Assembly: GCF_016097555.1 (NCBI RefSeq)
Contig: NC_054704.1
Location: forward strand, 43,065,751 to 43,129,750
DNA length: 64,000 nt
Direction of reading: 5' to 3'
From: Gigantopelta aegis
Taxonomy: Eukaryota > Mollusca > Gastropoda > Neomphalida > Peltospiridae
Notes under the pieces: generated by a model
The model's database searches: none
Seen by the model: the letters and a program-made list of their open reading frames with translations, nothing else
Told to the model about the DNA's origin: nothing
Made by a program: the position numbers and the translations under genes
In this document: positions 1 through 48,900 of the stretch, in pieces
Numbering within the stretch: position 1 is the stretch's first letter
Layout of the letters: each line of letters opens with the position of its first letter

Positions 1-800
1 TGTTAATCCACCCCTGGCGCGAATACACTCGACACATCGTTGCCTCATGCTGTTGATCAGACGTCTGAAGAACTCTTGGGGAATGGCCTGCCCGCCGCCA
101 ATCTGCTGAAGGCCTGGGAGAACCAACGGCCGGATAATCCCATTCAGATAGCGGATTCCATTCAGATTTCCATCCACCACATAGAGGGGGGTCCTGTGGT
201 GGATAGAGATGCCGCCCCACACCATGACGCTACCACCACCGAACCGGTGACGTTGTCTAACGTTAACATCAGCGAAGCGCTCCCCAGGACGTCTGTAGAC
301 ACGAACCCGACCGTCGTTGAACTGGAGACTAAACCTGGACTCATCAATGAACATCACTCGACCCCACTGAACACGTTGCCACTGCAGATGAAGCGTGCAC
401 CAGTGACGTCTGGCCGTTCTGTGACGTGGTAGGAGTGGTGGTCGAACAGCCTGGCGACGGCAGCGTAGATTATTGGCTCTCAGACGATTGCGTATGGTTT
501 GATCAGACACTCGAGTTCCAGTCGCAGTCCGCAGATCGTCACGTAATCGGCGTGCAGTGGCTGTGCGATGACGTAGAGCCATATTGGTGATGTAGCGGTC
601 CTCTCTATTTGTAGTGCTTCGGGGTCTTCCCGAACGTGGACGATTTCGAACAGAATTCGTTGCTTGGTACCGTTGCCACAGTCGGCCAACGACACTCTGA
701 CTGACACCAAGTCTCAGAGCAACATTTGTTTGCGTATTGCCATCCTGAAGCCAAGCAATAGCCCTTCCTCGATCTTCGATAGTCAGTTAAGTCGTACCAT
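1..800 (-). pseudogene. Tc1-like transposase remnant, copy 1
   Basis: Reading starts at the ATG at 800 (minus) and runs off the left edge. A one-base loss six codons in breaks the frame at once. The middle of the gene is in frame here (residues PLYVVDGNLNG), unlike copies 2-5. The DNARPH and SPDLAPIEHAWDEL blocks are gone with the 216-bp deletion, so the catalytic site is missing. The family normally encodes about 340 residues: a paired-type helix-turn-helix and a DDE nuclease that cuts at TA sites. Confidence 0.85.
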
Positions 801-1163
801 TGTCGAATTTGGAGTGTGCACCGTACACGAACGCAAGCTCCAATTATACGGAAATTCAGAATTGGGAACATGGAATACACGTGCAAAGCATGCAAATGAA
901 GCGCTTTGTGAAAAAGCAAGTTATGGGCACTTAGCAGACCTTTCGCTTTCGCCCTAATTTACGTGCAAATGTAAGCATGTTTTCGCCATTAGAACTAGTC
1001 GACAGTGTCAACGACAGTGGGTTTTAATTCATTTATGGGTTGCTTAGACCCACTTTCGTTAAAATGGAACAATACCATGCGTGACATTATGGTCTAGCTA
1101 ATATAATTGACATTCAGAAAATAATGTCGAAAATATCGTCTGACCCTTAAATTCTTTTGAGTA

Positions 1164-1166
<3 letters not shown>
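1..1166 (-). mobile_element. Tc1/mariner-type transposon, copy 1 (left end cut by window)
   Basis: First unit of a tandem array. The right terminal repeat lies at 1141-1166 and is followed by (TA)n. The left end is outside the window. Compared with the three full-length copies it lacks 216 bp near position 88, an exact 72-codon in-frame loss that removes the second Asp and the Glu of the catalytic triad. It keeps 11 bases in the middle of the gene (around 162-222) that copies 2-5 have lost, so this copy split from the others before they multiplied. Confidence 0.9.
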
Positions 1167-1210
<44 letters not shown>

Positions 1211-1213
<3 letters not shown>

Positions 1214-2801
1214 TACTCAAAAGAATTTAAGGGTCAAAAATTTATAACCAAATAAGTTTCAGAGTGTATTAGATTGATGATGTAAACTACACCAAAAATT
1301 TAATTTATTGTTCCATATTTACAAAAACACACAAATAAACGTCACTGTATACAATAAAGTCACATGACATGCTGTCAAAGTTGAAGGTTGTCAAACATGG
1401 ATTTTACACATTAGAACATTCGTTTAATAGTGTGCGAATCCACCCCTGGCGCGAATACACTCGACACATCGTTGCCTCATGCTGTTGATCAGACGTCTGA
1501 AGAACTCTTGGGGAATGGCCTGCCACTCTGCCATAAGAAGTTGACCCAGATCATGAAGGTTGGCCGGAGGGGCATGGTTATCCCGAACTCTCCTGCCTAA
1601 TTCGTCCCAGGCATGCTCTATTGGGGCCAAGTCAGGCGAATATGCTGGCCAATCCATCCTGGCGATACCTTGTTGTCTGAGAAAGTCCGTTACCACCCTG
1701 GCGCGGTGGGGTCTGGCATTGTCATCCTGCAGAACTGCCCCGCCGCCAATCTGCTGAAGGCCTGGGAGAACCAACGGCCGGATAATCTCATTCAGATAGC
1801 GGTTTCCATTCAGACCACATAGAGGGGGGTCCTGTGGTGGATAGAGATGCCGCCCACACCATGACGCTGCCACCACCGAACCGGTGACGTTGTCTAACGT
1901 TAACGTCAGCGAAGCGCTCCCCAGGACGTCTGTAGACACGAACCCGACCATCGTTGAACTGGAGACTAAACCTGGACTCATCAGTGAACATCACTCGACC
2001 CCACTGAACACGTTGCCACCGCAGATGAAATGTGCACCAGTGACGTCTGGCCGTTCTGTGACGTGGTAGGAGTGGTGGTCGAACAGCCTGGCGACGGCAG
2101 CGTAGATTATTGGCTCTCAGACGATTGCGTATGGTTTGATCAGACACTCGAGTTCCAGTCACAGTCCGCAGATTGTCACATAATCGGCATGCAGTGGTTG
2201 TGCGTTGACGTAGAGCCATATTGGTGATGTAGCGGTCCTCTCTATTTGTAGTGCTTCGGGGTCTTCCCGAACGTGGACGATTTCGAACAGAATTCGTTGC
2301 TTTGTACCGTTGCCACAGTCGGCCAACGACACTCTGACTGACACCAAGTCTCAGAGCAACATTTGTTTGCGTATTGCCATCCTGAAGCCAAGCAATAGCC
2401 CTTCCTCGATCTTCGATAGTCAGTTGACGTCGTACCATTGTCGAATTTGGAGTGTGCACCGTACACGAACGCAAGCTCCAATTATACGGAAATTCAGAAT
2501 TGGGAACATGGAATACACGTGCAAAGCGTGCAAATGAAGCGCTTTGTGAAAAAGCAAGTTATGGGCACTTAGCAGACCTTTCGCTTTCGCCCTAATTTAC
2601 GTGCAAATGTAAGCATGTTTTCGCCATTAGAACTAGTCGACAGTGTCAACGACAGTGGGTTTTAATTCATTTATGGGTTGCTTAGACCCACTTTCGTTAA
2701 AATGGAACAATACCATGCGTGACATTATGGTCTAGCTAATATAATTGACATTCAGAAAATAATGTCGAAAATATCGTCTGACCCTTAAATTCTTTTGAGT
2801 A

Positions 2802-2804
<3 letters not shown>
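1211..2804 (-). mobile_element. Tc1/mariner-type transposon, copy 2 (full length, 1,594 bp)
   Basis: It is bounded by 26-bp terminal inverted repeats beginning TACTACTCAAAAGAATTT (left 1211-1236, right 2779-2804), with (TA)n outside each, as expected for TA-targeting elements. One gene fills the interior on the minus strand. Copies 3 and 4 have exactly the same length and differ from this copy at very few positions. Confidence 0.93.
1424..2438 (-). pseudogene. Tc1-like DD34E transposase, frameshifted (copy 2)
   Basis: The start is the ATG at 2438 giving MVRRQLTIEDRGRAIAW; the end is GGFAHY-stop at 1424. From the N terminus there is a paired-like double helix-turn-helix (about residues 1-115) with a GRPR linker (RSGRPRST). 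The nuclease follows, with Asp in FTDESRF, Asp in LQDDNARPH and Glu in DLAPIEHAW. The last two acidic residues are 34 apart, the Tc1 DD34E spacing. Relative to copy 1 there is a one-base loss and a ten-base loss around 1818-1853. The N-terminal half therefore ends out of frame after GGGSVMVWA, and the C-terminal half sits in another frame. The lesion is shared by copies 3-5. No active transposase is expected. Confidence 0.9.
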
Positions 2805-2835
<31 letters not shown>

Positions 2836-2859
2836 TACTCAAAAGAATTTATATATATA
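2805..2859. repeat. (TA)n junction with an extra truncated terminal repeat
   Basis: This spacer between copies 2 and 3 holds (TA)n, then an 18-base piece of the left terminal repeat at 2833-2850, then more TA before the full repeat of copy 3. The other junctions lack this stub. Confidence 0.85.
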
Positions 2860-4450
2860 TACTACTCAAAAGAATTTAAGGGTCAAAAATTTATAACCAA
2901 ATAAGTTTCAGAGTGTATTAGATTGATGATGTAAACTACACCAAAAATTTAATTTATTGTTCCATATTTACAAAAACACACAAATAAACGTCACTGTATA
3001 CAATAAAGTCACATGACATGCTGTCAAAGTTGAAGGTTGTCAAACATGGATTTTACACATTAGAACATTCGTTTAATAGTGTGCGAATCCACCCCTGGCG
3101 CGAATACACTCGACACATCGTTGCCTCATGCTGTTGATCAGACGTCTGAAGAACTCTTGGGGAATGGCCTGCCACTCTGCCATAAGAAGTTGACCCAGAT
3201 CATGAAGGTTGGCCGGAGGGGCATGGTTATCCCGAACTCTCCTGCCTAATTCGTCCCAGGCATGCTCTATTGGGGCCAAGTCAGGCGAATATGCTGGCCA
3301 ATCCATCCTGGCGATACCTTGTTGTCTGAGAAAGTCCGTTACCACCCTGGCGCGGTGGGGTCTGGCATTGTCATCCTGCAGAACTGCCCCGCCGCCAATC
3401 TGCTGAAGGCCTGGGAGAACCAACGGCCGGATAATCTCATTCAGATAGCGGTTTCCATTCAGACCACATAGAGGGGGGTCCTGTGGTGGATAGAGATGCC
3501 GCCCACACCATGACGCTGCCACCACCGAACCGGTGACGTTGTCTAACGTTAACGTCAGCGAAGCGCTCCCCAGGACGTCTGTAGACACGAACCCGACCAT
3601 CGTTGAACTGGAGACTAAACCTGGACTCATCAGTGAACATCACTCGACCCCACTGAACACGTTGCCACCGCAGATGAAATGTGCACCAGTGACGTCTGGC
3701 CGTTCTGTGACGTGGTAGGAGTGGTGGTCGAACAGCCTGGCGACGGCAGCGTAGATTATTGGCTCTCAGACGATTGCGTATGGTTTGATCAGACACTCGA
3801 GTTCCAGTCACAGTCCGCAGATTGTCACATAATCGGCGTGCAGTGGTTGTGCGTTGACGTAGAGCCATATTGGTGATGTAGCGGTCCTCTCTATTTGTAG
3901 TGCTTCGGGGTCTTCCCGAACGTGGACGATTTCGAACAGAATTCGTTGCTTTGTACCGTTGCCACAGTCGGCCAACGACACTCTGACTGACACCAAGTCT
4001 CAGAGCAACATTTGTTTGCGTATTGCCATCCTGAAGCCAAGCAATAGCCCTTCCTCGATCTTCGATAGTCAGTTGACGTCGTACCATTGTCGAATTTGGA
4101 GTGTGCACCGTACACGAACGCAAGCTCCAATTATACGGAAATTCAGAATTGGGAACATGGAATACACGTGCAAAGCGTGCAAATGAAGCGCTTTGTGAAA
4201 AAGCAAGTTATGGGCACTTAGCAGACCTTTCGCTTTCGCCCTAATTTACGTGCAAATGTAAGCATGTTTTCGCCATTAGAACTAGTCGACAGTGTCAACG
4301 ACAGTGGGTTTTAATTCATTTATGGGTTGCTTAGACCCACTTTCGTTAAAATGGAACAATACCATGCGTGACATTATGGTCTAGCTAATATAATTGACAT
4401 TCAGAAAATAATGTCGAAAATATCGTCTGACCCTTAAATTCTTTTGAGTA

Positions 4451-4453
<3 letters not shown>
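2860..4453 (-). mobile_element. Tc1/mariner-type transposon, copy 3 (full length, 1,594 bp)
   Basis: Terminal repeats at 2860-2885 and 4428-4453. It has the same orientation, length and internal lesions as copy 2. Confidence 0.93.
3073..4087 (-). pseudogene. Tc1-like DD34E transposase, frameshifted (copy 3)
   Basis: It is the same gene as in copy 2, starting at the ATG at 4087. It carries the same one-base and ten-base losses mid-gene, so the helix-turn-helix plus first Asp and the second Asp plus Glu are in different frames. One visible amino-acid difference from copy 2 is ARRLC in place of ACRLC. Confidence 0.9.
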
Positions 4454-4499
<46 letters not shown>

Positions 4500-4502
<3 letters not shown>

Positions 4503-6090
4503 TACTCAAAAGAATTTAAGGGTCAAAAATTTATAACCAAATAAGTTTCAGAGTGTATTAGATTGATGATGTAAACTACACCAAAAATTTAATTTATTGT
4601 TCCATATTTACAAAAACACACAAATAAACGTCACTGTATACAATAAAGTCACATGACATGCTGTCAAAGTTGAAGGTTGTCAAACATGGATTTTACACAT
4701 TAGAACATTCGTTTAATAGTGTGCGAATCCACCCCTGGCGCGAATACACTCGACACATCGTTGCCTCATGCTGTTGATCAGACGTCTGAAGAACTCTTGG
4801 GGAATGGCCTGCCACTCTGCCATAAGAAGTTGACCCAGATCATGAAGGTTGGCCGGAGGGGCATGGTTATCCCGAACTCTCCTGCCTAATTCGTCCCAGG
4901 CATGCTCTATTGGGGCCAAGTCAGGCGAATATGCTGGCCAATCCATCCTGGCGATACCTTGTTGTCTGAGAAAGTCCGTTACCACCCTGGCGCGGTGGGG
5001 TCTGGCATTGTCATCCTGCAGAACTGCCCCGCCGCCAATCTGCTGAAGGCCTGGGAGAACCAACGGCCGGATAATCTCATTCAGATAGCGGTTTCCATTC
5101 AGACCACATAGAGGGGGGTCCTGTGGTGGATAGAGATGCCGCCCACACCATGACGCTGCCACCACCGAACCGGTGACGTTGTCTAACGTTAACGTCAGCG
5201 AAGCGCTCCCCAGGACGTCTGTAGACACGAACCCGACCATCGTTGAACTGGAGACTAAACCTGGACTCATCAGTGAACATCACTCGACCCCACTGAACAC
5301 GTTGCCACCGCAGATGAAATGTGCACCAGTGACGTCTGGCCGTTCTGTGACGTGGTAGGAGTGGTGGTCGAACAGCCTGGCGACGGCAGCGTAGATTATT
5401 GGCTCTCAGACGATTGCGTATGGTTTGATCAGACACTCGAGTTCCAGTCACAGTCCGCAGATTGTCACATAATCGGCGTGCAGTGGTTGTGCGTTGACGT
5501 AGAGCCATATTGGTGATGTAGCGGTCCTCTCTATTTGTAGTGCTTCGGGGTCTTCCCGAACGTGGACGATTTCGAACAGAATTCGTTGCTTTGTACCGTT
5601 GCCACAGTCGGCCAACGACACTCTGACTGACACCAAGTCTCAGAGCAACATTTGTTTGCGTATTGCCATCCTGAAGCCAAGCAATAGCCCTTCCTCGATC
5701 TTCGATAGTCAGTTGACGTCGTACCATTGTCGAATTTGGAGTGTGCACCGTACACGAACGCAAGCTCCAATTATACGGAAATTCAGAATTGGGAACATGG
5801 AATACACGTGCAAAGCGTGCAAATGAAGCGCTTTGTGAAAAAGCAAGTTATGGGCACTTAGCAGACCTTTCGCTTTCGCCCTAATTTACGTGCAAATGTA
5901 AGCATGTTTTCGCCATTAGAACTAGTCGACAGTGTCAACGACAGTGGGTTTTAATTCATTTATGGGTTGCTTAGACCCACTTTCGTTAAAATGGAACAAT
6001 ACCATGCGTGACATTATGGTCTAGCTAATATAATTGACATTCAGAAAATAATGTCGAAAATATCGTCTGACCCTTAAATTCTTTTGAGTA

Positions 6091-6093
<3 letters not shown>
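4500..6093 (-). mobile_element. Tc1/mariner-type transposon, copy 4 (full length, 1,594 bp)
   Basis: Terminal repeats at 4500-4525 and 6068-6093. It is separated from copy 3 by 46 bp and from copy 5 by 58 bp of pure TA repeat. Confidence 0.93.
4713..5727 (-). pseudogene. Tc1-like DD34E transposase, frameshifted (copy 4)
   Basis: The translated halves are identical to those of copy 3 (ARRLC variant), with the same shared mid-gene frame break. The start is the ATG at 5727. Confidence 0.9.
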
Positions 6094-6151
<58 letters not shown>

Positions 6152-6154
<3 letters not shown>

Positions 6155-7611
6155 TACTCAAAAGAATTTAAGGGTCAAAAATTTATAACCAAATAAGTTT
6201 CAGAGTGTATTAGATTGATGATGTAAACTACACCAAAAATTTAATTTATTGTTCCATATTTACAAAAACACACAAATAAACGTCACTGTATACAATAAAG
6301 TCACATGACATGCTGTCAAAGTTGAAGGTTGTCAAACATGGATTTTACACATTAGAACATTCGTTTAATAGTGTGCGAATCCACCCCTGGCGCGAATACA
6401 CTCGACACATCGTTGCCTCATGCTGTTGATCAGACGTCTGAAGAACTCTTGGGGAATGGCCTGCCACTCTGCCATAAGAAGTTGACCCAGATCATGAAGG
6501 TTGGCCGGAGGGGCATGGTTATCCCGAACTCTCCTGCCTAATTCGTCCCAGGCATGCTCTATTGGGGCCAAGTCAGGCGAATATGCTGGCCAATCCATCC
6601 TGGCGATACCTTGTTGTCTGAGAAAGTCCGTTACCACCCTGGCGCGGTGGGGTCTGGCATTGTCATCCTGCAGAACTGCCCCGCCGCCAATCTGCTGAAG
6701 GCCTGGGAGAACCAACGGCCGGATAATCTCATTCAGATAGCGGTTTCCATTCAGACCACATAGAGGGGGGTCCTGTGGTGGATAGAGATGCCGCCCACAC
6801 CATGACGCTGCCACCACCGAACCGGTGACGTTGTCTAACGTTAACGTCAGCGAAGCGCTCCCCAGGACGTCTGTAGACACGAACCCGACCATCGTTGAAC
6901 TGGAGACTAAACCTGGACTCATCAGTGAACATCACTCGACCCCACTGAACACGTTGCCACCGCAGATGAAATGTGCACCAGTGACGTCTGGCCGTTCTGT
7001 GACGTGGTAGGAGTGGTGGTCGAACAGCCTGGCGACGGCAGCGTAGATTATTGGCTCTCAGACGATTGCGTATGGTTTGATCAGACACTCGAGTTCCAGT
7101 CACAGTCTGCAGATTGTCACATAATCGGCATGCAGTGGTTGTGCGTTGACGTAGAGCCATATTGGTGATGTAGCGGTCCTCTCTATTTGTAGTGCTTCGG
7201 GGTCTTCCCGAACGTGGACGATTTCGAACAGAATTCGTTGCTTTGTACCGTTGCCACAGTCGGCCAACGACACTCTGACTGACACCAAGTCTCAGAGCAA
7301 CATTTGTTTGCGTATTGCCATCCTGAAGCCAAGCAATAGCCCTTCCTCGATCTTCGATAGTCAGTTGACGTCGTACCATTGTCGAATTTGGAGTGTGCAC
7401 CGTACACAAACGCAAGCTCCAATTATACGGAAATTCAGCATTGGGAACATGGAATACACATGCAAAGCGTGCAAATGAAGCGCTTTGTGAAAAAGCACTT
7501 TCGTCAAAATGGAACAATACCATGCGTGACATTATGGTCTAGCTAATATAATTGACATTCAGAAAATAATGTCGAAAATATCGTCTGACCCTTAAATTCT
7601 GTTGAGTAGTA
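6152..7611 (-). mobile_element. Tc1/mariner-type transposon, copy 5 (1,460 bp, array end)
   Basis: Terminal repeats at 6152-6177 and 7586-7611; the right repeat has one substitution (CTGTTGAG for CTTTTGAG). About 134 bp upstream of the transposase start are missing at 7498, which accounts for the shorter length. A short TA run to 7619 separates it from unique flank. Confidence 0.92.
6365..7379 (-). pseudogene. Tc1-like DD34E transposase, frameshifted (copy 5)
   Basis: It has the same broken gene as copies 2-4, including the mid-gene frame break, and starts at the ATG at 7379. Because of the upstream 134-bp deletion the open frame extends further 5' to 7532, but that extension is former non-coding leader. 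It shares the ACRLC residue with copy 2 rather than copies 3 and 4. Confidence 0.9.
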
Positions 7612-8217
7612 TATATATAGAGGTTATTACCAGAGTGTTTTTTTCGGTACAGGTGATGCGCCAGTTCCGGATCACTTCCGGATCACCTGTAGTTACCGAT
7701 CAGTCTGTCGGTATATTCAATATTTAGTAATTTCTATGTAAATTTTATTAAACAAATATTCTAACAAACAAATAATACATGTTTCTTGAAATTGTGCGTA
7801 AAATAACTGTAACAGTATATAGTCTTGGTTTTATTTTGGACGGCGATACATAACCACTACTAAAACTTTACACGAGCAGACGACATGAAAAAAAGAAGAC
7901 GTTTAAAAAGAGATGAAGTTTTTGATGTTTTTCTTTTTATATCCTTTGAAATTTTATAGTACGAGTAGGGGAAACATATATAGATTGTGCATGACTAGTT
8001 TTATGGAAAGTGATGCTGCAAACGACTTACTGTAACTCATCAAAGGGGACACACTTGATGCGCCAGTTGCGGATCACTCACAAAACGGAAGTATTTACGT
8101 TGTAACTGCCGCTAGATGGGGCGATGAACGCAGGGTTTATCTCAAGACTCAAAAACGTTGAACACGGTGGAATTTTTGTCTCCCACTTTTCCCCCTTTCT
8201 TTATAACAATAATGATG

Positions 8218-23131: not shown

Positions 23132-25480
23132 TCAGCTATTAAGGCTAGGATCTGGCTCATTGCGGCATATCACTGAAATGCGCCTGTCCCTTGGCACAAC
23201 TTCGCCTCGAAAATATGATTCTTTTTCAGGGAGAATTTCATGGGTGTAGTGATACCTGACAGCATCTCTGAAAGTAAAGCACAAAAAAAGATATTGGTAA
23301 AAAAAAACCCACAACTACCGTACATAATATATCATACTTGCCTTAGTGATGCAGGCTTGGATAAATCTGGGCAACCATAATCGTCATTGTTGTAAGCCTT
23401 ATGGGACTCTAACCGTAGCACCAAATTGCTCATAGTTCCCAGACAACCACCATTACCACTGACTGATGCAGGCTTGGATAAATCTGGGCAACCATAATCA
23501 TCATTGTTGTAAGCCTTATGGGACTCTAACCTTAGACTCTAACCTTAGGCACCAAATTGCTCATAGTTCCCAGACAACCACCATTACCACTGACTGATGC
23601 AGGCTTGGATAAATCTGGGCAACCATAATCGTCATTGTTGTAAGCCTTATGGGACTCTAACCGTAGGCACCAAATTGCTCATAGTTCCCAGACAACCACC
23701 ATTACCACTGACTGATGCAGGCTTGGATAAATCTGGGCAACCATAATCGTCATTGTTGTAAGCCTTATGGGACTCTAACCTTAGGCACCAAATTGCTCAT
23801 AGTTCCCAGACAACCACCATTACCACTGAGTGATGCAGGCTTGGATAATTCCGGGCAACCATAATCGTCATTGTTGTAAGCCTTATGGGACTCTAACCTT
23901 AGGCACCAAATTGCTCATAGTTCCCAGACAACCACCATTACCACTGAGTGATGCAGGCTTGGATAAATCTGGACAACCATAATCGTCATTGTTGTAAACC
24001 GTATGGGACTCTAACCTTAGGCACCAAATTGCTCATAGTTCCCAGACAACCACCATTACCACTGAGTGATGCAGGCTTGGATAAATCTGGGCAACCATAA
24101 TCGTCATTGTTGTAAGCCTTATGGGACTCTAACCTTAGGCACCAAATTGCTCATAGTTCCCAGACAACCACCATTACCACGTAGTGATGCAGGCTTGGAT
24201 AAATCTGGGCAACCATAATCATCATTGTTGTAAGCCTTATGGGACTCTAACCTCAGGCACCAAATTGCTCATAGTTCCCAGACAACCACCATTACCACGT
24301 AGTGATGCAGGCTTGGATAAATCTGGGCAACCATAATCGTCATTGTTGTAAGCCTTATGGGACTCTAACCTCAGGCACCAAATTGCTCATAGTTCCCAGA
24401 CAACCACCATTACCACTTAGCGATGCAGGCTTGGATAAATCTGGGCAACCATAATCATCATTGTTGTAAGCCTTATGGGACTCTAACCTCAGGCACCAAA
24501 TTGCTCATAGTTCCCAGACAACCACCATTACCACTGAGTGATGAAGTGATTAAGCATAAGGCTGCTATGTACTATGTTCAGAAGTCTGCTTTGTTTAATG
24601 ACACCACTAGAGCACATTGATTTATTAATCATCGGCTATTGGATGTCTTACATTTGGTAATTTTGACATATAGTCTTAGAGAGGAAACCCACTACATTTT
24701 TCCATTAGTAGCAAGGGATCTTTTATATGTACCATCCCATAGACAGGATAGCAATTACCACTGCCTTTGATATACCAGTTGTGATGCACTGGCTAGAACG
24801 AGAAATAGCCCAATGGGCCCACTAACGGGGATCGATCATAGACCGACCACATATCAAGTGAGCGCTTTACCACTGGCCTACATCCCGCCCCATACTATGT
24901 TCACAATCTGTTACTAGCTCCCACCCTGAGTCAGTTTCAATGGCTTAGTGAGGAGGTGTAATGGTACAAACGTCTTGATCACCAACTACTACGTAACTAT
25001 AATCACACTGTTTTAGATTGTCAGCCCAGAGAGCTTATGTGTGTCTGGAACAGGGTGCTTAAACTGTAATAGGAAATAAGCACAAAAACAAAGTTAAAAT
25101 GAATATGATTAAGTTGTTGACATATCTTTGTGTCGACATGTAAATTCTAAATAGAACAATATACTAAATATCCATGTATAGTACTGTAATAATGGAAATG
25201 TTTGTTCGTAACTTAAAAACCGTCCTATCTTAAAATGGAATCTTTGTTTAGGGAACACTTTATAAACAAATAATTAAAAAAACTCTCAAAACTGAACCCT
25301 CTGTAAACCGGAATTCCGTCAAGACTGGATGTCTTTCACAGTCCCTTTTCAGAAATCAGTATAGAACTTAACATCTCTAAACCAAATACCTGTTATAACC
25401 AGACATTTTGCTTGGGAATCGATCCTAGACTGACTGTGCATCAAGCAAGCCCTTTACCACTGGGCTACATCCTGCCCCGA

Positions 25481-33784: not shown

Positions 33785-34319
33785 ATAAAAATAGGTGAAA
33801 ATTAAAGACTGTGATTCTGTGTGAATGGTTAAGTCATCTTAAAACATTTACTGTTGATAATGAAGTCCTGGGCAGATTTGAACATGCAGGTGTACTAAGG
33901 TTTGGATCCCAATATAATAAAGTGTTGCAATTAAGACTAAAATTATTTTTTGCTTGATGCACATTAAATATGTAGTTTCATTTCAAATCCATTTTTAGTA
34001 AAGGAGACTATTTTTATTCAATTAGAATATTCTATTCACAGTCCGATGCATTTGTGTGCATTAAAAAAAAACCCACCAAAAACAAAAACTACAGATTTTT
34101 TTCTTGCTTTTTTTAAAACAGATTTTTATACAGAATGTGAAAATCTTTAACAGCTTACTTCAAAGATATTTTACGTTGTGCTGACAACTTCATAAATTAT
34201 GTCATTTAGCTATACTAATTTTATTTTTTCTAAATATATTTGTTACTGCTTTGAATTATGCTACAGTATACTAATTATACTTTTTTCTCTTCTGGTTTTT
34301 TTCAGAATAGTCAATCAAA

Positions 34320-37300
34320 ATGTCGATTGCAATAGCCCAGGCCAGGCACATTTTTGGTCTGAGACCTGGAGTTTCAGGGGCTATTTGCTATCATGATGAA
34401 CAAACCATTGTTTATGCATCAGGAGCCAACTGCATCTTGTACAACACTGATCAGAAAGTGCAGAAGTTCATTCCTGGGACTGATAAAAGTCAAGGAATAA
34501 CAGCTCTTGCAGTGAGCCCAAACAGGAGATATGTTGCAATTGCAGAGAAGAGCGAAAAGCCAACTATAACCATCTATGATTTGCATTCTCTACGGAAGAA
34601 GAAAGTTCTAACATCACCAGATGTTACATCTGACGAATATGTCAGTCTTGCTTTCTCTCCAGATTCCAAGTATCTTGTAGCCCAAGGAGGAAAGAAAGAT
34701 TGGATTTTACTGTACTGGACATGGGAGAAGTCAAAAGTCATGGCAACAGCCAAGACCTCAAATCCACTGAATACAGCAGAAGTTTATCAGGTATCTCATT
34801 AGATGTTGTACCTATTTTATTATGTTTTGTTTACTTTATAAATCGTAAGCGGGCAGGACATAGCCCAGTAGTAAAGCACTTGCTTGATGCACGATCGGTT
34901 TAGGATGAATTCCCATCTGTGGGCCCATTGGGTCTGTGCTTCACAACTGATGTAAAAAAAGAAGAAAAAAAGGCTGTGGTATGTACTATTCTGTCTGTGG
35001 GATGCTGCATATAAAAGATCCCTTGCTTCTAATCAAAAAGACTAACCCTTTGTATGGTGGCAGCAGGATTGTTTCCTCATTATCTGTGTGGTCCATAGTC
35101 ATATGTCTGACACCATATAACTAATTAAAGTGTGTTGAGAGCATTGTTAAATAAAACTTTCCTTCCTTCCTTTTTAATTGTAAAGACAGAAAATCATTTA
35201 ACAAGATCAATCTTTATATTATTGTATAATTATATTTATTAAAATAAATTTACAAATCATATAGAATTATATTGTGGTATAATTTTAGTTTTAAATAGAA
35301 ATACTTCTGTAAATGAAACATTTAAATACATTAACATCAGTATAACATGAGGATAACTAATTTGATTGCCATATGGGTGTAATTAATGTTATAATAAATT
35401 ATATGTTTTTATTACAGGTGAGCTTTAACCCTCAAGACAACACACAGCTGTGTGTAATAGGTAATGGCATCTTTAAACACTTCCGCTACAGTGAAGGAAA
35501 CCTCAAGCCATTCAATTTCATGAAGATGGAGGCCCAGAATTATCTCTGTCATGCATGGGTTTCAGAGGAACGTGTTGTTGTGGGAACAAGCACTGGTCAT
35601 CTGTTGCTGTTTGAAGCAGGAGAGTTAAAGAGTGAATTTGTTCTTGCTGAAAAGAAAGATGAAAAGTAAGTATATAATAAGTTACTGGGCTATGCAAGAA
35701 ACACTGTACTATCTATTATATATATATATAGAGAGAGAGAGAATAACTGGTTACTGCCTTAATAAGATATCAGCTTTATCCTGTAAAGGTTAGAATGGCG
35801 AATGCTGTGAGGCTCTATCGAGCAACATTTGCCATTTGACTTGAGCAGGATAAAGCCGATATCTTAAGGAAGTAAAAGGTTATTTTATTTATCCTGCAAT
35901 CCTACAGGAATAGTCAGAAAATCATTATTTATTCCATTTTTGTGTTTGCAAATTCAGTCTTTTCAACCTAGCAAGGCTTTTGCAGTATGACGTTGTAAGA
36001 TGCTAGCTACATTCTGTCACATTCAAAAAGCATTTCTAAACTTTTAATTCATAAATAAATATACACATTTTGTATAGAGATAAAAAAACAAACACCTAAA
36101 GGTTATTTGTATTTATTGTACTAAAATGATTTAAAAAGTCTGTTTATTGAAAATCTAGTCTTAAATACTCGAGTCGAGTCGGGCTTATCGGTTATGTCAC
36201 GTGACCTATATTTTTGTCAGTGTTCGAAAATATAGATATTTGTCTTGTCATCATATCTTGCCAATGTATACAGTGATTGCAGGATAAATATATATATTTT
36301 TTAATATCTAGGTTATCACAAAAAAACAAAGTGAATCTGTATGTCCCAGATACATGTAGTGACACAAATGAATTTCATCTAGAATAGTTATTTTGCTGCT
36401 TGTATATTACCACAATTGTTAAGATACCTTGTTTATATTACCTAAACAAATCATGATTAAAATCACTGTATAAGAACATTAAAAAAACCCTCCACAAAAC
36501 ACAGACATAAAATTGTTTTATGCTTGTGATAAGTCTGTTGTACATATGCTATTTCAAACCAAGTTATTTTGAAATTACCTTTTTTAGCTTTTTTTTTTAA
36601 TAATACTTCCATACCATTCTTTTTTCTTGTAAATAGTTTATTAATATATTTGACACTGCAAACTATTAACAACAGAAAGATATATTTTTATTACCAGTCA
36701 ATTTGTTTGTGTTTTATGTTAAGAAAATATGTTAAATTCTAGAGAAGCAAAACAGTGATTGTGTGTTTATTTTAGAACTGAAGAGGGTATCGTATCAGTT
36801 CCTGTACAGGTTACAGCAATTGTGGCTTACTCGAAGGGCTACGCATGTGCTTGTGGACCAGGGACAGTGCACCTTTTTGAGAAAACTGATGACAAGGATT
36901 CATTCAAAAAAGCCAGAGAGATCAAGGTGAATATTGGTTGTAATGCACATGTAATGTTTATAACAGAATGTTGAAAAATAATTGATAACATCCAATAACT
37001 GAATAGTCTGACTTTCAGCTTATAAATATTACACTGTGGTTTTACATAATTGTATAAATAATATTTCCATACACTTACCTTTTCTTGACACCAAATAGTT
37101 GATGTGTATTTTTTTGTGCTGGGGTGTCTTTAAACATTCATTCATTCATTCATTCATTCATTCATTCATTCATTCATTCATTCATTCTTTAATTCATTCT
37201 TTAATTCATTCAGCTTATAAATAAGAAGCTTGGTTACATAAATGAGAAGAAGAAATTAGAACTATCTTAGTTCTGACCATTACTGTGTCACACAAATGTT

Positions 37301-40300
37301 TCCAAAATTAAATTTCCCCCAAGATGTTTGCATGTATTACATAACATTAATGTAAATATAAAAATTCACCATTTATGTTTTAATAAAACTCTTTGGCAGA
37401 TACCCCCAGACAACAACAGTGCAGACCCAACTAAAGCCCAACAGCAGATTATCAAATGTTTGACCGTCAGCCCATCTGAGGAGATTCTGGTAGCTAGCAC
37501 TGACTGCAACCAGCTGTTTTACCTAACACTGTCCAGTGCTGATCTCGGCAAGGTATTGTTTTATAATGTTTCATGTACATATTTTGGAAGATTGTTTATT
37601 AATGTGAATTGAAATAATAAAAAATTACTCATTATTGTTTTAAAATATTGCTTTTGGCTCACAAATACCAATGATCAAACTAATGAATTTAAAAAAAGAA
37701 ATTTCATTTTTTTTTTTTTTTAATAGTCAGGTTATTTAGGAATTGAAAAATGCAGAATAAAAATTTGTATCATATTCAATATATCGAACCAGTATCATAC
37801 CATATACTTTTTATAACATTAGTATTCTGATGTTAATTCTAATGGCAATAACAAAAGTAAAAAAAAATAAAAAATAGACACCACAAGGTTAGAGATTTCC
37901 TTCATTGTGACTTATCTGTAAAGATATCAGAATTTAATGTGTATAATATGTCTTTCCATTTCAGGGAGATCAGGCCACATTTGAAGTTTTAGCTCAGAGT
38001 TTCCACCATGGTCAGATTTTAGGCTTGGATGTCTGTATCAGAAAACCTTTGATAGCTACGTCATCAATGGACAGATCTGTCAGGATATGGAATTATGAAA
38101 CATGGTACAGTGTTATATATATTAATTTCATATAAAATCAATTTTTTCTTTAGTTCAGATTTGAGTTTTTCACCTGAATTTGGAATCAGAATTTGTATCT
38201 GAGTGATTATTATGCTGAAATATTATGGACATTTAATATATAATAATAATTTGATTTTAAATTATTTGTTTGCCTAATTGTTAGATTTTTATATTAGATA
38301 TCAGTTACATATACATGTGTATTGTTCTGATATGAAACCTTTTCTATCATTGCAATTTAGTCTAATTTGTCTAGTTTGAAATTGTTGCTGTACTATTTTA
38401 GTTGGTATTTGTCACTATTGCTGGTCATTTAAATATGCATTAAATGTGTATTGAGTTTGTAAAAGCAGTGCTTTAAATTGTAGGCTATCAAGAGTTCAAA
38501 ACTTAAGAATTTTTAGTCATGCATAGACTAAATGTTGGTTTATGTCCAATAAAATTTTAAAAATGAATGTTCAGAATGTTTGGCCTAAATGTTAATTTAT
38601 TTCAAGTCTGGTCCGTAACCATATGTCTGATGCCATTTAACCATAAATAAAATGTGTTGAGTGTGTTGTTAAATAAAACGTTTCCTTCCTTATTTCAAGT
38701 CTGGGTAAAAAAAGAGGTTCGCATATATGTTTGTTGAATTTTTTTTTAATTTTTTTTTAACAATCATGAATGTTAAAGAAGCAGTTATGATAATGAATAT
38801 TACTAATTACTAAATGTTTTTTCAGTAATCTTGAACTGTACAAGGAGTTTGCTGAAGAGGCCTATGGTATTGCCCTCCATCCCTCCGGCCTGTACATCCT
38901 GGTCGGGTTTAGTGATAAACTACGGCTGATGAATCTTCTCATTGATGACATTAGGACATTCAAAGAGTTCACAGTGAGAGGATGCAAGGAGGTAAGAACT
39001 TTTTATTTAATCTTTGACCATTTGTGGATATATATTTTTTTAGTCCCCTACCGGTCCAACCAGAGGGACTATATATTTTGTCTCTGTCTGTCGATCTGTT
39101 AATCTAGCCTACATACAGAGTTCCAGACTTTTTTTTCAATACATTATCAAGGTATTGACCTGATATTATGTGTATTACTTTATCTTGTACAGTTACTGAT
39201 CAAATTTGAGTTTCATGCAAATTTACCCATTTGTTTACAAAGTTATTGCCCTTGAACATTGTGGGCCCCAATTAATATTATTAATATGTATTAATATTGC
39301 TTTAGCAATACTCGCAGAATGCTTGTTTAAATAATGTTAGTATTCCTTTTTTCTTTCTTTTTTAAAGTAAAAAATGTATCCATGTCAGGATATAACATTA
39401 AAATAATGGTCACAATGGAATATGAATATTTGTTAAATATTGATGTCTTTGTGACAGTCATTCATGATCACATGAAATTCTTTAAATATGTTTTATTCTT
39501 ATTGTTTCAGTGTATTAAACATTCATTGATAACAATAATTTAACATCATAATTTTATTTGTTTATTTTTCAGTGTGCTTTCAGCAATGGTGGCCACTTGT
39601 TTGCCGCTGTTCACGGCAATGTCATACAGATTTATTCCACCACCACATTTGAGAACGTGTCCAATCTGAAAGGTCACAATGGCAAGGTTCGATCCATCAT
39701 CTGGAGTTCCGACGACAGCAAGCTGGTATCATGTGGTGTGGATGGAGCAGTGTATGAGTGGGAGCCTTGCACTGGAAAGAGGCTGTCTGAGTGTGTACTC
39801 AAATCCTGCAGCTTCACTGGTGTCGCCGTTACTCCTGATGGCAAGACTACCTTCGCTGTCGGCTCGGACAAAACACTGAAGGAAATTGCAGATTCACAGG
39901 TAAGACTCTTAATGTTTAGTGTAGGGCCTCCACGAGTCCAAAATATTGGACACGAGTACCCGACACTTACACTAGATGATAATGAGACTAAGGAATAAAG
40001 TAAAATAGCATTATGCATCTTAATTTCAACGCTGAATATGGATGCCAAATCATGCCAGTGTATTGAATTCCACACATTTTCATAGCCCTATAATGTAACC
40101 GGCTGCAGTGATTTGGCAAAATGACATACAAAAATATAATTAAATGAGAGTACTTTTCCTTGCATGGGTACTCGAGTCCTGTGAACAGACTCTAGTCCTG
40201 CTAGACTCGGCCTATACTCGAGTATTCACAGAGACCCTAATTTGGTGTGGGCAGTTCATGCATGTTGTATTTGTTGATAACCTTTCTTGTCTTTTCTTAG

Positions 40301-42562
40301 TTGAAGCATTGATACAGGAACATTAATGTATTTTTAGAACCCTTTAAAGTAGAGTGTGGCATTTAGTATTTCTTAAACACCATTTAACATAAAAAGAACG
40401 GATTACATGTGCATTAAGTTTGGTTATGAAACATGTGATGAGGTTGCACATTTACATTTGTTTTTTGACAAGCAGCTAGTAAACAGAATGATTACATTTC
40501 AGATTCTGAGAGCGGTTACATCTGGTGAAATGACGTTGAGCAATCTGGCACTGTCTCGTTCAGGACGTATGCTCTTCACTGGTACCGTGCGTGGCACCTT
40601 GTGGTCCATGAAGTTCCCGTTGACTACACCTGGTGAATGGCAAGAATACCAAGGCCACAGCTTGGCAATCACAAAGGTCTGTGTGTTAAATATTAGTGGT
40701 TTTGACAAGATTTCACTATTTATCCTGTTGTTGTAATAATTCTAAAAACCCAGTCCATTATGGACTTAACGATTATTGTTTTTCAGGTTGCAGTCAGCAG
40801 TGTAATATTTTTAGGTCACTGTACATTCACAGGGCTCATTCTGTGCATTGCCAAATACCTGTGCATTGCCAAATACCTGTGCATTGGCTACAAGTGGCTA
40901 CAACATTTAGTCTTTGGCTAATAAAATATTCCTTAAATCAACCAGATTTTAATAATTTTCAAAAAATTCTCTAAATATTAAAAAATTGGCTTAACCGAAA
41001 TTTGTTCCAGTGTGAGTGCTGTATTCATTAAAGTGATCAAACTGAAATTGTACAATTCCTTTTCCATCACAGTAACGTGAAATATATTGACTTGACTACA
41101 GTTTCCATAGTTGATTGGAATTTTGGTAAGTACCCAATGCCCTGACTACCTAGTATATTACAATGACTTTAAATTACAGGAAGTTTTATTTTTGAATTCC
41201 AAAAGAAAAAGTATCAAAAAACATTTATTCCTTTTTCTTCTTTTTTCCCCATTGTGAGTCCATTGTATTGCGGTTCTTTTCTGTTCTTAGTGTTTAATGA
41301 GACTTATTTCTTTTTGTTTTTCCAGATGAAAATCACATTTGATGACCAGTACCTAATTACAGTGTCAGAGGATTCAACCATTATTCTGTGGAAGATTCAG
41401 GACAAGGAAGGGCGTGGTTTAAAGCGTGACAAAGAAGTTGGGTGGGCAGAAGAAATTCTCATTACCAAAACTGACTTAGAGGAGAAGGTAGTCATTTATT
41501 ACAGAATTATTTAATATTTAAAATTTCATTAAATATAAATAATAGTTTTTGTTGTTAATTTAAGACCTATAAGTAATTTGTCACTGATAATTTACGTTCA
41601 GATGTGAAATTAAGAAGACCTCATACCTCCTTATAGACATCAGTGGTGTTACACATATATTCACAAAGTATTTACATACACTAAACAATTGCAATAAAAC
41701 TTCTATATTTGTAAATATTTTAAACAGAAATCTAGACAATACAATTGATTAAATATGGAACAATTTTGTCAAGCAAAATCCTTCATATGATGAGTATATA
41801 TTGGAGAAAGAAATGGCTTAACTGCCTTTTCTGTGTTGAATAATTTTCACAACAGTTTCTTAAACCTTCATTAGGAATAATTTAATATTAAACACTAGTA
41901 ACAGTCTTTGGTTCTGTTGCTGTGTCTGGAGGATAGGCAAACTGAAGGTACAAGCATAACATGGGGAATATGTCTTTCTAAATGTGCATGAGATTTCTGT
42001 AAAGGTTATGTTGGCCAGTATTAAAGACTGTAACACTGCCACTTGTATCTCGTGTAGAACTCTATGATGGCTGAGCTGAAGACGCGGGTGGAGGAGCTGA
42101 AGATGGAGAATGAGTACCAGCTGCGACTCAAAGACATGAACTACAACGAGAAGATGAAAGAGCTCACCGAGAAGTTCATCCAGGAGATGGAGTCACTGAA
42201 AACCAAAAACCAGGTCGGTCTGTCTGTGTATGTGTGTAAACTGATTAGATAGGAAGTTATTCATAGTGTTTTAATTCACCTGTTACTACAAGGTTACACA
42301 GTCCGTTAACCCGTATACTGCTGCATTATTTTTGCAATCTATAAAGAATTTTCACCTCTTATAAATTTCTAGTAATATATTAAAATCTGTTGACATTTTA
42401 ACATGAAATTACACACATGAATTCCATGATTAAAACGATGCTAAGTGATATCGTAGTGATGACACTTGATATGTATACACGTCACTAGCAGGATACAGGT
42501 TAATATATTTATAATCATTGTATTAAATTTGTTTAAGATGTAGATTTATTTTTAATGGAAAA

Positions 42563-42606
<44 letters not shown>

Positions 42607-45600
42607 ACAACCAAAAAATCCCAAACAAACAAACAAACAAACAACAAAAAGCCCTTAGGCAATGAATTTGTGTAAGTTTTGGGGAAATGTCACCAATTAA
42701 GTATGATATAAAAGGTACAAAGTCCCAAAATAGCCCTCACTCTGTTGTTTTGATGTGGGTGGATTTTTTGTTGTTTTTAGTATGCTAAGTGTTTTGGTCC
42801 AATTTTGATTGACAGGTTTTGAAGACCGACAAGGATAAGGAGGAAGCAAAACATGAGGAAGAGATGTCAGAATTAATGGAGAAGCATGCTAAGGAAATGC
42901 AAGATCTTGGTGAGAAGATTAATATTATGAGAATAATTTCATCAGTTTCCTTTGCTTCCAGTTACCAAATAAATTATTAATGGATATGTTTTCAAACATG
43001 GCACATATATTGCTTTACAAACCACAATGTTTAAAATATAACAGTTTGTTGGCATTTACTTTATCATTGAAAGAAGATGTGCTTTAATATGACCAATAAT
43101 TCCAGCTCTTAATTAGATGGCTAATATGCATATGTCAGCATTGTGGAATATAATCACCAATTTTGAGATCTGTTTTTACACACTATTAAAACCTGTGCTA
43201 AAGTAGATTACTTTCTTTACAATATCCAATACATAATGTGTCAAAATGTAATGTCAGTCCAAAAAAATAAAAAGGTTCTTACTTGGCAAGTTGAGGGTGA
43301 AGAAGGCTGATGCAGTAGTTTTTCACAAGAATCTTAATCCTTAATTTTGTGTCTTTCAGAGTCCGCCAACAACCAGAAGCTGATGCTTGAGTACGAGAAG
43401 TTCCAGGAGCAGCAGGCGAAGATGATGAAGATGCAGGAGGATTACGAGCGCCAGCTCACCGAGATGGACGAGAGCAAACAGCATTCACTGGAGGAACTCA
43501 CCGAGTACTATGAGACCAAGCTGCAGGAGATGACCTCCAGGCTGGAACAGGTCCGTAGTAGCACCAGTTATTACTTCATGCACCTGGCTTTAACATTACT
43601 AAATCCTGTACCTGTACTATGTTTAATATTTATATCCAATTGCAATATAGTATGACAAATTTAATTTCTTTTCTACTTAACCTGACCTCAAACAATGGCA
43701 TATTTCCCATGGGATATTAGTCTGGTCCAAACATCTTAACAGCCAATGGGATGACCGGAAGAGTAAGCAGTGGACTTATTGGAAGATGTTAGCCATCCCA
43801 TTGGCTGTTGGGATGTTTGGATCAGACTACTATTCCTAGGGGAATATGCCATTGGTTGAGGTCAAGTTAAGTATTATTAAAAGAGAAAACACTGCAAGTT
43901 TTCTACTTTGTTTTCATCCTGATTAGGCAGACAATTGCAAAACAGTTTTTTCTAAGTAGCTAGCAAATTTACATCATTGTGACCCTCAGTATTATGATGT
44001 CTAATAAGTAAACTACTGCTATACAAAGTTGGTCTGAGTGTTCTTAGGCAAAAGTTATTCAAGTCTGAAAATCACAGATGTATTTGTTTGATATATATAT
44101 AATCAAATTCAAATTCTTTCAATGAAATGTAATAAAAGCTCATTGTTTTCAGTGAAGTCTAAACTATATTTGACAGATTCAAATTCAATTTACTTTTTAT
44201 GATTTGCTAAATGAGGGTTTAAAATCCTGATCATTGATCCTAAAGCTAGGATCCAGTCTGCTATTCTCTGAAGTAACCATCGTTATTTTATCAGTGATCT
44301 GTGTGATACATCGTCATTACTAAGTATATTTATATATTTTCAGGCCAAGGATGAAGCTAGCCAGCTAACTCGTGAATATGAGGAAACAAAACACCAGATA
44401 GAAGAGGATGCGGATCGTGAAATTCTCGACATCAAGAACAAATATGAACGCCGATTAAGAGATGAGAAGGAAGCTAACATGAGATTAAAGGGAGAGTCTG
44501 GAATTATGAAGAAAAAGGTATTGTTATTGCTAACAAAGACAAAAATTTACAAATAAAGGCATTCATTAAAGATTGTCTGTTTGTATAAGTCTGCTGTTAA
44601 CATCATTTACATAGTCTTGTTATTTTTTGCAGATATATTGTAATCCAGAAATATTATTACTATTTTTTTTTTTATAATGCTAAAAGTCATAAAAATACCT
44701 TTTAGCTTTTTTTTTTTTTTTAACCTTAGATGACAGAGGCTATAGAGATGCTATTGGACATTATGCACTGTTCATGAACCAGATTCTTTGACCATGATTG
44801 GCATTTTCAACAATTTACATTAAAAAATAATAATTTCAAATTATTCAATGATAGACATTACAAGAAGAATGTTATTGTATAGCGTATTATATTGGTATAT
44901 ATTTATTTATTTATAGTTCACAAGCTTACAGAAGGAGATTGATGACCATAAGGAGGAAATCAAGAAACTGAATGCTGAAACCAACAAGCTGAACAACATC
45001 ATCAGAAATCTGGAGAAGGACATACAAGGCCTCAAGAAAGAGATCCAAGAAAGAGATGACACCATTCAGGACAAGGTTAGGCTTGACATTGATCTCACAT
45101 GTTGATGTGCTTTAATTATGAAAAATATATGATAGTCTGTTACATGAACATTTATTTTACTTTGTGATATTAGTTGACAACTTTGACAGTTTCAGAAGTG
45201 TTGGCAGTTCAATCTTTTGATAAAGCTTTATTGTTTCATTTTTTTTTTTTTTTTTTTTTTTTTTCATTGATCTCATTTGTTCATTATAGGAGAAACGTAT
45301 CTATGACCTGAAGAAAAAGAATCAAGAGCTGGAGAAGTTTAAGTTTGTGTTGGACTACAAGATCAAGGAGCTCAAGAAACAGATTGAGCCAAGAGAGAAT
45401 GATATTAAAATGATGAAGGAACAAATACAGGAGGTGGGTTGAGCACTTTTCTAATAGCTGTTTCTCATTTATATTTTAATTTTGATACAGTTATGCAATT
45501 ATTTTAAAAGATTGTTTCTAAAATTGTGCTAATTGTCAGATTTTTCAACTCTAATCTGAATAATGACTGAATTTTCAACTCGAATCTGAATAATGACAGA

Positions 45601-45888
45601 AAATTTAATCTAATAGTAGTATATTTGACAGCCTTTTATTGTAAATACAGTCATTAAAGCAAAAATGCTTAGTTCGGGGAATGGTTTTGATGAATTGTTC
45701 TGCATGAACACCTTTTTTATGAACTTTTTTTTTTTTTGTCTTCAGAAGTCATCAATTTAATGTAGTTTCACATTCAGTAAATAACTGACATTCATTCACT
45801 CAAATGTTACATTTATCGTCCAGTTTAATTTAAAAGTTACTTTATGTTGGTTTAAATGATTTTTTAAAATTGGTTAAATTACAATTAA

Positions 45889-45929
<41 letters not shown>

Positions 45930-48900
45930 CATCATTACAGTAAAAAAAGAACTGTGAATATATGTGATCACATCTAGAATTAAACATTCTTCTAGTATTG
46001 TCTCTGAAATGTTATAAATATGTCATTACTGAGTGACTGTGTTGGATATTTCAGATGGAGAGTGAACTGGAGAGATTCCACAAACAGAACACACAACTTG
46101 AACTGAACATCACTGAACTCCGACAGAAACTCAAAGCTACAGACAAGGAAATGCACCAAGAAAGACAGAGGGTACTGAAACAGTCAAATACTCGAATTAG
46201 CACTTAGTTTCATATTTCCACCGGTTAAGGGGACAAATTCCTATTTTTAAAAAAAGAAGAAAAGTCTAGTGAATTATATTGATATTTTCCGAAAGTTTTT
46301 TTTTTTTTTTTTTTAAATACTAGTTATTCTGTGTTCCTTTCTTGTCCCTTTAGGTTGGGAATCGTAACATAATAACACTGCTTAGTTCCATGTTAATGGC
46401 ATTAATAAAAAATATAATAATTCCAATAAATCATTAAAAAAATAAGCTTAAGTGTTATCCAATACAAGTCTAACAACATTGCTTAATATGGGTCTAAACC
46501 CAATCTGATTATTCTGTGGACTGTTTGCCCACATCACAAACTGTTATTTGTTATCTACTCGGGTACTGTGCTTTTGTTTTCTTCTGCCCCATCTTAACAT
46601 ACATCCTTTAGAATCAAGTACCATTTTTTTTTACCACCTACCAGTATGTCCGTGCACAAGTTTTACTACCAGCCTCTGTTTATTCAAGATGATATGTTTT
46701 TCAGGTGCGTGATGTTGAGGCCATTGTTCGCCGCTTCAAGACTGATCTGCACAACTGTGTGGGATATATCCAGGACCCTAAAATGCTCAAGGAAAGCATC
46801 AAAGCTCTCTACCAGAAACACGTGCAGGAAGATATTGTAAGTGGACTGGGATATAGAGACTACTACACGAGTGACCATTAGATATCCTTTATGTTACAAG
46901 CGAGTTGTATACGTTTTTAAACAATGAGTTGAAAGATAAATGGTATCTAATGGACACAAATATAGTATTCTGTTTCTTAGATATTCTCAAAAACCAGGTT
47001 TTAAACAAATATAAACATCTTTTTTAAATAAAATTTAATTACAGCCCTTTAACTTGTAGCTAACTTACATGTCAGGTTAACTATTCAGGTCACAGATCAA
47101 TTAGTTTTGATGTTGCCTTTTTTTATTGGATGGTATGGCTGTTATGATTGGGTCATCACCTAGGAGCAGCCAGTTATAAGTCTTTAATTGTCATCACACA
47201 CGTTATTAGTAATTTAGTATGTGTTATCAAAAATAAGGAAATGTGTTCTTACCAATGGGGTGTAAGGAAAGAGAGAACAAAGAAATGTGTTCAAAAAGGT
47301 AAATAATAATTTATTTAACCCAACAATTTCAAGACACTGCTTACTTGTATCAATTTAAAGTGACCCATTGAAAGGAAACAATTTTAGCTATCCTCAAAAA
47401 CTACAGCCATGCTGGTTCTGGGGCGAGTTTCTTGGGCATTAGTAAAAGGAAAAAGCACATGTAGATCAATTTTTTTTGTCTTGTCATCCCATTTCATCAA
47501 ATTCATTACTAAAATCTGAACATCAATCTAGCGTAAAACTTTATTGGATGGAGGTGTTGTAAAAAGTGTAACAGTATACGTCAGTATAATTGTTTTTTTT
47601 TTTTTTTTTTTACAGTTGTTTGTTTGCTTATTATTTATTTAATATTTACTTCTTGTTATTTGTTTATTTATTGCATGAACATAGATTTTGCATGTTTCAA
47701 GCAAGAATCATTGAGTTTTTAATAAGCTTTATTTATATTTATTTTAAATATTTCAGGGATGTACATTAGAAATATTACTCTTATTTTAAGTTGTCCATGG
47801 TGAAAAAGGATACAAAAAAAAAAAAAATGGGGGGGGTGGGTGGGGGGGGAATGGGATGGTGGTTCTGATGGTTAATGGTCATAAGAGTATAACAGCAATA
47901 TTTTCAGCTCAGAGATATATGTGATGACTGGAATCTTGAATACATAATAATGATTAGATTGTCTTTATTTCAAAAAAGAGTCTATTTAGGCAATCTATCA
48001 TTGTGTCATGAAAATAAAATAAAGAGACAACAAACAGAAACATGCTTTGCTTTTGATTAGCATCTTACATGATGAAAACACTTCTAACAAACAAGTTCCG
48101 GATTGAAATTGCCAATGACGTAATTTTAAACAACATCTTCTGTAAATGATGTCATCCGACATGATTATGAATAATTTTTCTGCAACATATTCCATTACTA
48201 AATGTGTTTTTAATTATAATCTTTTTTAAATTGCTAATCTAATAACTGTTTTAATGTATGGCAGACCGAGTCAGCAAGTGTTGATGCAGATATTCAGAAG
48301 GAATACAGTCGTCAGCGTGAACATCTGGAGCGATCTGTGGCGTCACTGAGGAAGAAACTGGAAAAGGATTCAGAAATTCACAAAGCCGATAATGTTCGCA
48401 TCATGCAGGTTTGTACTCAGCTGTTTTTATGAATAATTATGGATATAAAAATTAGCTTGTCTTAGGTCTCACTACACAGATCACTTCCAGGTGAGAGTTC
48501 ATTCATCATGGTCCACTATAGTTCCTAATTGTGGCACATGTTATGGTTCACATATTCACTTCTAGGAAATGGTGAAGAATTAAAACAATAGGTATGTTTA
48601 ATGGTAAGCCTTCTGGCTGTATTTTGCCCATGTCATTTTGTAATATTGTGCATCGACCTTTTGGGATATGGGTATATAGCGCAAGTGACAGCCGGAGTGA
48701 ATCGGTTAATGAACCACCTGTTCGGACCGGTACTACAGCCAGATGCGGTCATATAGCAAAAAACTGAGACGGAAATGTTCACAATTTTGGAGTGAATATA
48801 AATGCTTATATAATGTATGTTCACAATGGTGTATGTTGTTAGTGCCAACGAGAACCCGTTCTATGGGCAATCTTCGATTGAAGTTGGGCAGTTTAACATG

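Follow-up and report, generated by a model that had tools for sequence, protein, structure and literature searches.

A short Tc1-like transposon array in Gigantopelta aegis whose middle units appear to be recombinants of its outer units

Closest described systems and the present locus

Homogenisation is generally expected to wipe out the first steps that lead from a dispersed transposon to a tandem repeat. Here, we analyse a stretch of 64,000 nucleotides from the gastropod Gigantopelta aegis (hereafter the window; C6:43065751-43129750 of an assembly of 1,149,253,464 bp), which holds nearly all of a row of five broken Tc1-like transposons. In this row, two apparent parents and their apparent recombinants stand side by side, told apart by markers without an exact match elsewhere in the assembly, and the route may be read base by base: two neighbours, their decay, an exchange inside the element and the copying of the resulting hybrid.

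Head-to-tail rows of class II transposons have been described in other animals. According to the excerpted text of a 2022 review of Bari transposons (PMC8834629), Bari1 of Drosophila melanogaster is arranged head to tail in one cluster of about 80 copies in h39 and another of six on the X; its units lack the first two nucleotides, are heterochromatic and are ascribed to rolling-circle-like copying of a circular transposon, and the same excerpt states that nothing comparable to this arrangement has been described. McGurk and Barbash (2018), as described in passages of PMC12628747 and PMC12368964, envisaged a double insertion that then expands, up to 16 tandem copies in the case of hobo in Drosophila; the excerpt of PMC12368964 cites them for head-to-tail double insertion being common among class II transposons, and also reports a tandem element in the peppered moth. 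As described in passages of PMC6947457, a tandem repeat is made by unequal exchange between homologous elements.

As far as these excerpts describe them, all three systems share features with our locus. Like Bari1 (PMC8834629), it is a head-to-tail Tc1-mariner array, similar in size to the six-copy Bari1 cluster; unlike Bari1, it has spacers of TA runs, contains apparent recombinants of two parents and is separated by about 27 kb from the exons of a CFAP57-like gene. As in the hobo-type arrays (PMC12628747, PMC12368964), adjoining insertions would have given a dimer that then grew; here, in contrast, units descended from the parents still form both ends of the row, and those in between can be traced as recombinants with array-private markers. 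The origin by unequal exchange would be common to the system of PMC6947457, but our array has five units at one locus, and no satellite was found. We regard the locus as a small case, exceptionally easy to read, of a route that is already known, probably a double insertion with unequal exchange after it, and not as an incipient satellite. Among the matches listed in the open-licence literature, no title refers to an array with both parental and recombinant units.

Hybrid makeup of the middle units

Two short markers reveal the makeup of the array. A 20-mer across a 10-bp loss in the left part of the element occurs at 4 exact places in 1.149 Gb, all of them in units 2-5, whereas a 25-mer with the right-end marker pair 1439C and 1448G (unit positions) occurs at 4 exact places, all in units 1-4. 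Units 2, 3 and 4 carry both; hence, their left part is that of unit 5 and their right part that of unit 1. All our genome-wide pattern searches were exact and miss copies changed inside the pattern, so that the finding of no exact place for the 20-mer outside the array does not cover a copy with a further change inside it. By their sequence, units 2-4 thus appear as recombinants of two parents, X and Y, from which the outer units 1 and 5, respectively, appear to descend. The features are as follows, in window positions:

1..1167, minus strand: right part of unit 1 (parent X); the rest lies left of the window, starting at C6:43065544; transposase on the minus strand
1165..1212, no strand: (TA)24 spacer between units 1 and 2
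1212..2805, minus strand: unit 2, hybrid, left part Y-type and right part X-type, 1,594 bp
2429..2497, no strand: zone of the switch from Y to X in unit 2 (unit positions 1218-1286)
2803..2878, no strand: spacer between units 2 and 3, (TA)16 overlapping a 27-bp tandem duplication with 15 nucleotides of the terminal repeat
2861..4454, minus strand: unit 3, hybrid, identical to unit 4
4078..4146, no strand: switch zone in unit 3
4452..4501, no strand: (TA)25 spacer between units 3 and 4
4501..6094, minus strand: unit 4, hybrid
5718..5786, no strand: switch zone in unit 4
6092..6153, no strand: (TA)31 spacer between units 4 and 5
6153..7612, minus strand: unit 5 (parent Y), with the 10-bp and 1-bp losses, 134 bp missing and family-typical alleles at 1287 and 1487
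7613..7660, no strand: right flank, the end of a short TA run and then a different dispersed repeat

The five units thus stand head to tail in one orientation from C6:43065544, 207 bp left of the window, to window position 7612. An earlier note, made from the window alone, had already described five units in one orientation, three of them exactly 1,594 bp long, and this holds: units 2, 3 and 4 each have this length, unit 3 equals unit 4 throughout and unit 2 is one base apart from unit 4. The note called all five near-identical, but similarity to the outer units is uneven along the unit. Losses of one base and ten bases are indeed common to units 2-5, and unit 1 has neither; its own lesions, judged against the dispersed copy L021, are losses of 16, 216 and 1 bp, and in unit 5 a stretch of 134 bp is missing close to the right end. 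Contrary to what had been stated, not every spacer consists of TA alone: besides TA runs of 48, 32, 50 and 62 bases in order, spacer 2/3 holds the 27-bp duplication. The array does run past the left edge of the window, by the 207 bp of unit 1, but the sequence before unit 1, read in the neighbouring 9.9 kb, is not array. The suggestion that the array may be much longer therefore falls, since it closes at five units, and so does that of an incipient satellite; in an exact-match census of abutting family ends (at most 61 bases apart), which would miss mutated ends, no second array of the family was found.

The two markers are not isolated. With a 601-bp query we obtained 1,421 first-look candidates, 40 of which were scored (3 array units and 37 dispersed places); 19 of these 37 were aligned, which, being the best matches to the query, lean towards the array. 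Ten non-array copies with 1154G were added, of which the L030 copy was dropped (it matched in parts only), leaving nine, two of them identical (L029), and 28 aligned dispersed copies in total. Against these 28, and leaving out gaps and sites at which less than 90% of them share one letter, nine derived substitutions are found in units 2-5 only (at 144, 224, 402, 592, 739, 819, 950, 969 and 1092) and four in units 1-4 only (at 1287, 1439, 1448 and 1487). The nine left and four right substitutions do not overlap, an order with a chance of 1 in 715; position 402 lies in a stretch missing from unit 1, and 1439 and 1448 in one missing from unit 5. Eight of the 13 are absent from every dispersed copy with a letter there (27 or 28 copies), and the other five are found in one or two. 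Where the variable sites that were left out distinguish unit 1 from unit 5, as at 117 and 1308, they follow the same order. Moreover, a single switch point accounts for the 33 sites at which units 1 and 5 differ and units 2-4 agree, with 2 misfits (permutation p = 0.0011).

FastTree trees of the two parts tell the same story: for positions 1-1217, units 2-5 group together (0.994) with unit 1 elsewhere, and for positions 1256-1594, units 1-4 group together (0.984) with unit 5 elsewhere. In the left part, unit 3 shows 2 differences from unit 5 in 1,217 sites and 26 from unit 1 in 985; in the right part, it shows 5 from unit 5 in 205 sites and 1 from unit 1 in 339. Units 1 and 5 differ at 28 of 985 left sites. 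Since unit 1 is unlike the others at 1215 and 1217 (1217 was compared after realignment by eye), the switch falls after 1217 and before 1287. That units 2-4 have neither the large left loss of unit 1 nor the right loss of unit 5 agrees with a hybrid origin.

These results alter the picture given in the earlier note in two respects. It had derived units 2-5 from one already dead parent; instead, the outer units appear to come from two parents and the three middle units from their recombination. It had also considered exchange through the TA tracts, which does not account for the hybrids, as the change of type lies inside the unit. Its central idea, that elements already broken were amplified locally, is well supported, exact matches to the 20-mer that spans the 10-bp loss being confined to the array. 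A tree of array units with dispersed copies, which the note had proposed, gave the two groupings above, and dispersed copies with the same lesions, which it had regarded as evidence against local growth, were looked for: none of the 28 aligned copies has the 10-bp loss. The 1-bp loss is absent from the 19 dispersed copies first aligned, no genome-wide search for it having been made.

Origin of the hybrids and of the two parents

We consider unequal homologous exchange, with a probability of roughly 0.85, to be the source of the hybrid units. Two members of the Tc1-like family would have come to adjoin, similarly oriented, at a single TA-rich site, with X on the left and Y on the right, and would have decayed in place. 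Y on one chromatid would then have paired with X on another, with a switch within unit positions 1218-1286, and the longer product of the exchange would read X, a hybrid with a Y-type left and an X-type right part, and Y; near-identical units would then have exchanged once or twice more, bringing the hybrid to three copies. The predicted product matches the order and makeup found, with the middle unit in three copies. Given that the parts of common descent differ by few changes, against 28 of 985 sites between units 1 and 5, the exchange would be far more recent than the divergence of X from Y. We infer a crossover, as opposed to template switching or a circle, along with the order of events and the growth from one hybrid to three. 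Most likely, the row grew by in-place copying and not by further jumping; since the hybrid markers have no exact match elsewhere, nothing in the sequence would point to transposition as the means by which the hybrid spread.

Several observations weigh against this history. Site 978 has A in units 2 and 5 and G in units 1, 3 and 4, a pattern that no single simple history explains and that calls for recurrent change; the site is, by eye, a CpG, and A is also found in 2 of the 28 dispersed copies. The two misfits of the switch test, sites 956 and 1317, require later private changes. The right part is represented by four substitutions only, and at two of these positions unit 5 has no sequence. Finally, the array is known from the assembly alone and may contain an assembly error. 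An expansion, collapse or chimera of similar copies could be suspected from the identity of units 3 and 4 over 1,594 bp, but we find it hardly credible: the unit markers have no exact match elsewhere, the four spacers are all different, the order of the units fits a recombination product, and a chimera of dispersed copies would have carried in their alleles. The right junction of the array occurs at one exact place in the assembly, and by exact match of this junction no second assembled haplotype was found.

An unlikely variant of the exchange would pass through a circle. Crossing over within the X-Y dimer would release a circle with one unit of Y-type left and X-type right part, exactly the makeup seen, which would be multiplied, possibly by the rolling-circle mode proposed for Bari1 arrays in the excerpt of PMC8834629, and would re-enter the locus by homology, giving three hybrids at once; the near-identity of units 2-4 suits this course. 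It needs extra steps, however, and the sequence demands no circle; the differing spacer lengths also speak against it, but say little, as TA tracts change fast. A row copied wholly from one template, as in a Bari1-type rolling-circle array, does not fit the locus, in which units 1 and 5 depart from the middle units in opposite parts. If a hybrid circle was involved, dead transposons would multiply without transposase, and this might also explain Bari1-like arrays.

Going back to the start of the exchange history, X and Y quite probably represent two separate insertions rather than one duplicated insertion, to judge from the variants that they share with dispersed copies. A duplication in place was suggested by 1154G, which is common to both and absent from the first 19 dispersed copies. 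This origin is less favoured: 1154G recurs at 10 exact places beyond the array, and other markers of the copies found there distinguish X from Y. Unit 1 carries 820C and 1308G, as do 8 of the 9 aligned dispersed 1154G copies, and unit 5 has 820T, 1217C and 1308A, as does the ninth, G34; among the 19 other dispersed copies, 820T is found in 18 and 1217C in 16, with 1308 mixed. Since the differences between X and Y thus exist among dispersed copies, separate arrival is favoured. Against it, G34 has T at 85-91 like unit 1, and not A like unit 5, and in the left tree, where supports are weak, X does not join the 1154G copies and Y does not join G34.

The dispersed family and the surroundings of the array

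Among the features that place the elements in the Tc1-like family, unit 4 matches the Pfam domains HTH_Tnp_Tc3_2 (7.6e-14) and DDE_3 (2.4e-09), both over the curated cut-offs. The two domains lie in separate frames, hence the transposase frame is broken. The unit ends match each other in inverted orientation over 25-27 bases. The 18 dispersed copies in which both ends were recognised all have TA flanks on both sides, and six of them (two identical) have a 341-amino-acid frame; two of the 19 dispersed copies, L013 and L019, sit in long TA tracts. A coding-region 25-mer, the unbroken counterpart of the 10-bp loss, has 2,264 exact places in the assembly.

With these features, the array could be imagined to have arisen by repeated transposition in trans, a broken but mobilisable copy inserting into the TA tract beside its neighbours. 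The family targets TA and has at least 2,264 copies by that one exact 25-mer, a source of transposase may exist given the 341-amino-acid frames, and an abutting pair, head to head, is known at C4:44313853. Yet neither the lesion nor the right-end marker pair is exactly matched outside the array, transposition leaves the hybrid makeup unexplained, and five units in the same orientation would have a chance of 1 in 16 if orientation were random. We therefore regard this origin as very improbable; later copies may stem from the finished hybrid having hopped locally at a late stage, or a source copy may have been lost.

Family ends seldom abut: outside the array, the exact-match census of abutting ends returned two places, neither of them a second array: the head-to-head pair at C4:44313853, and C11:26488575 (L039), which is one copy with a terminal stub. 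The copies at C3:43233062 and C3:43236069 were likewise set aside, being identical copies 3,007 bp apart in a tandem duplication and not abutting; this duplication (L029, C3:43231000-43238000) is identical over 2,051 bp around the two transposon copies. By eye, the terminal-repeat stubs of L039 and of window positions 2803-2878 end after the same 15 nucleotides beside a TA tract, and they could be the product of slippage, of a failed insertion or a trace of excision.

The right flank was rejected as a unique anchor for the array, as it belongs to a dispersed repeat. This repeat, from window position 7616 onwards, is high-copy: one of its 22-mers is matched exactly at 317 places, of which five on C3 are spaced 43 bp apart. 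Immediately to the left of the array, at about 8900-9390 of L009, a short tandem repeat of about 40 bp is visible by eye. The exons of the CFAP57-like cilia gene start about 27 kb right of the array, within window positions 34311-49572, and the array therefore lies in gene-bearing sequence. The open reading frame at 34311-34802 matches CFAP57 (1.2e-48 to 9d2f_W), that at 39552-39998 contains WD40 repeats, and that at 49231-49572, which has no Pfam match, is assigned to the gene by position only. The window also holds two other tandem repeats, one of 118 bp at 23345-24543 (10 copies, 95% match) and one of 55 bp at 62818-64000 (21.5 copies, 97% match), which extends up to the right edge of the window.

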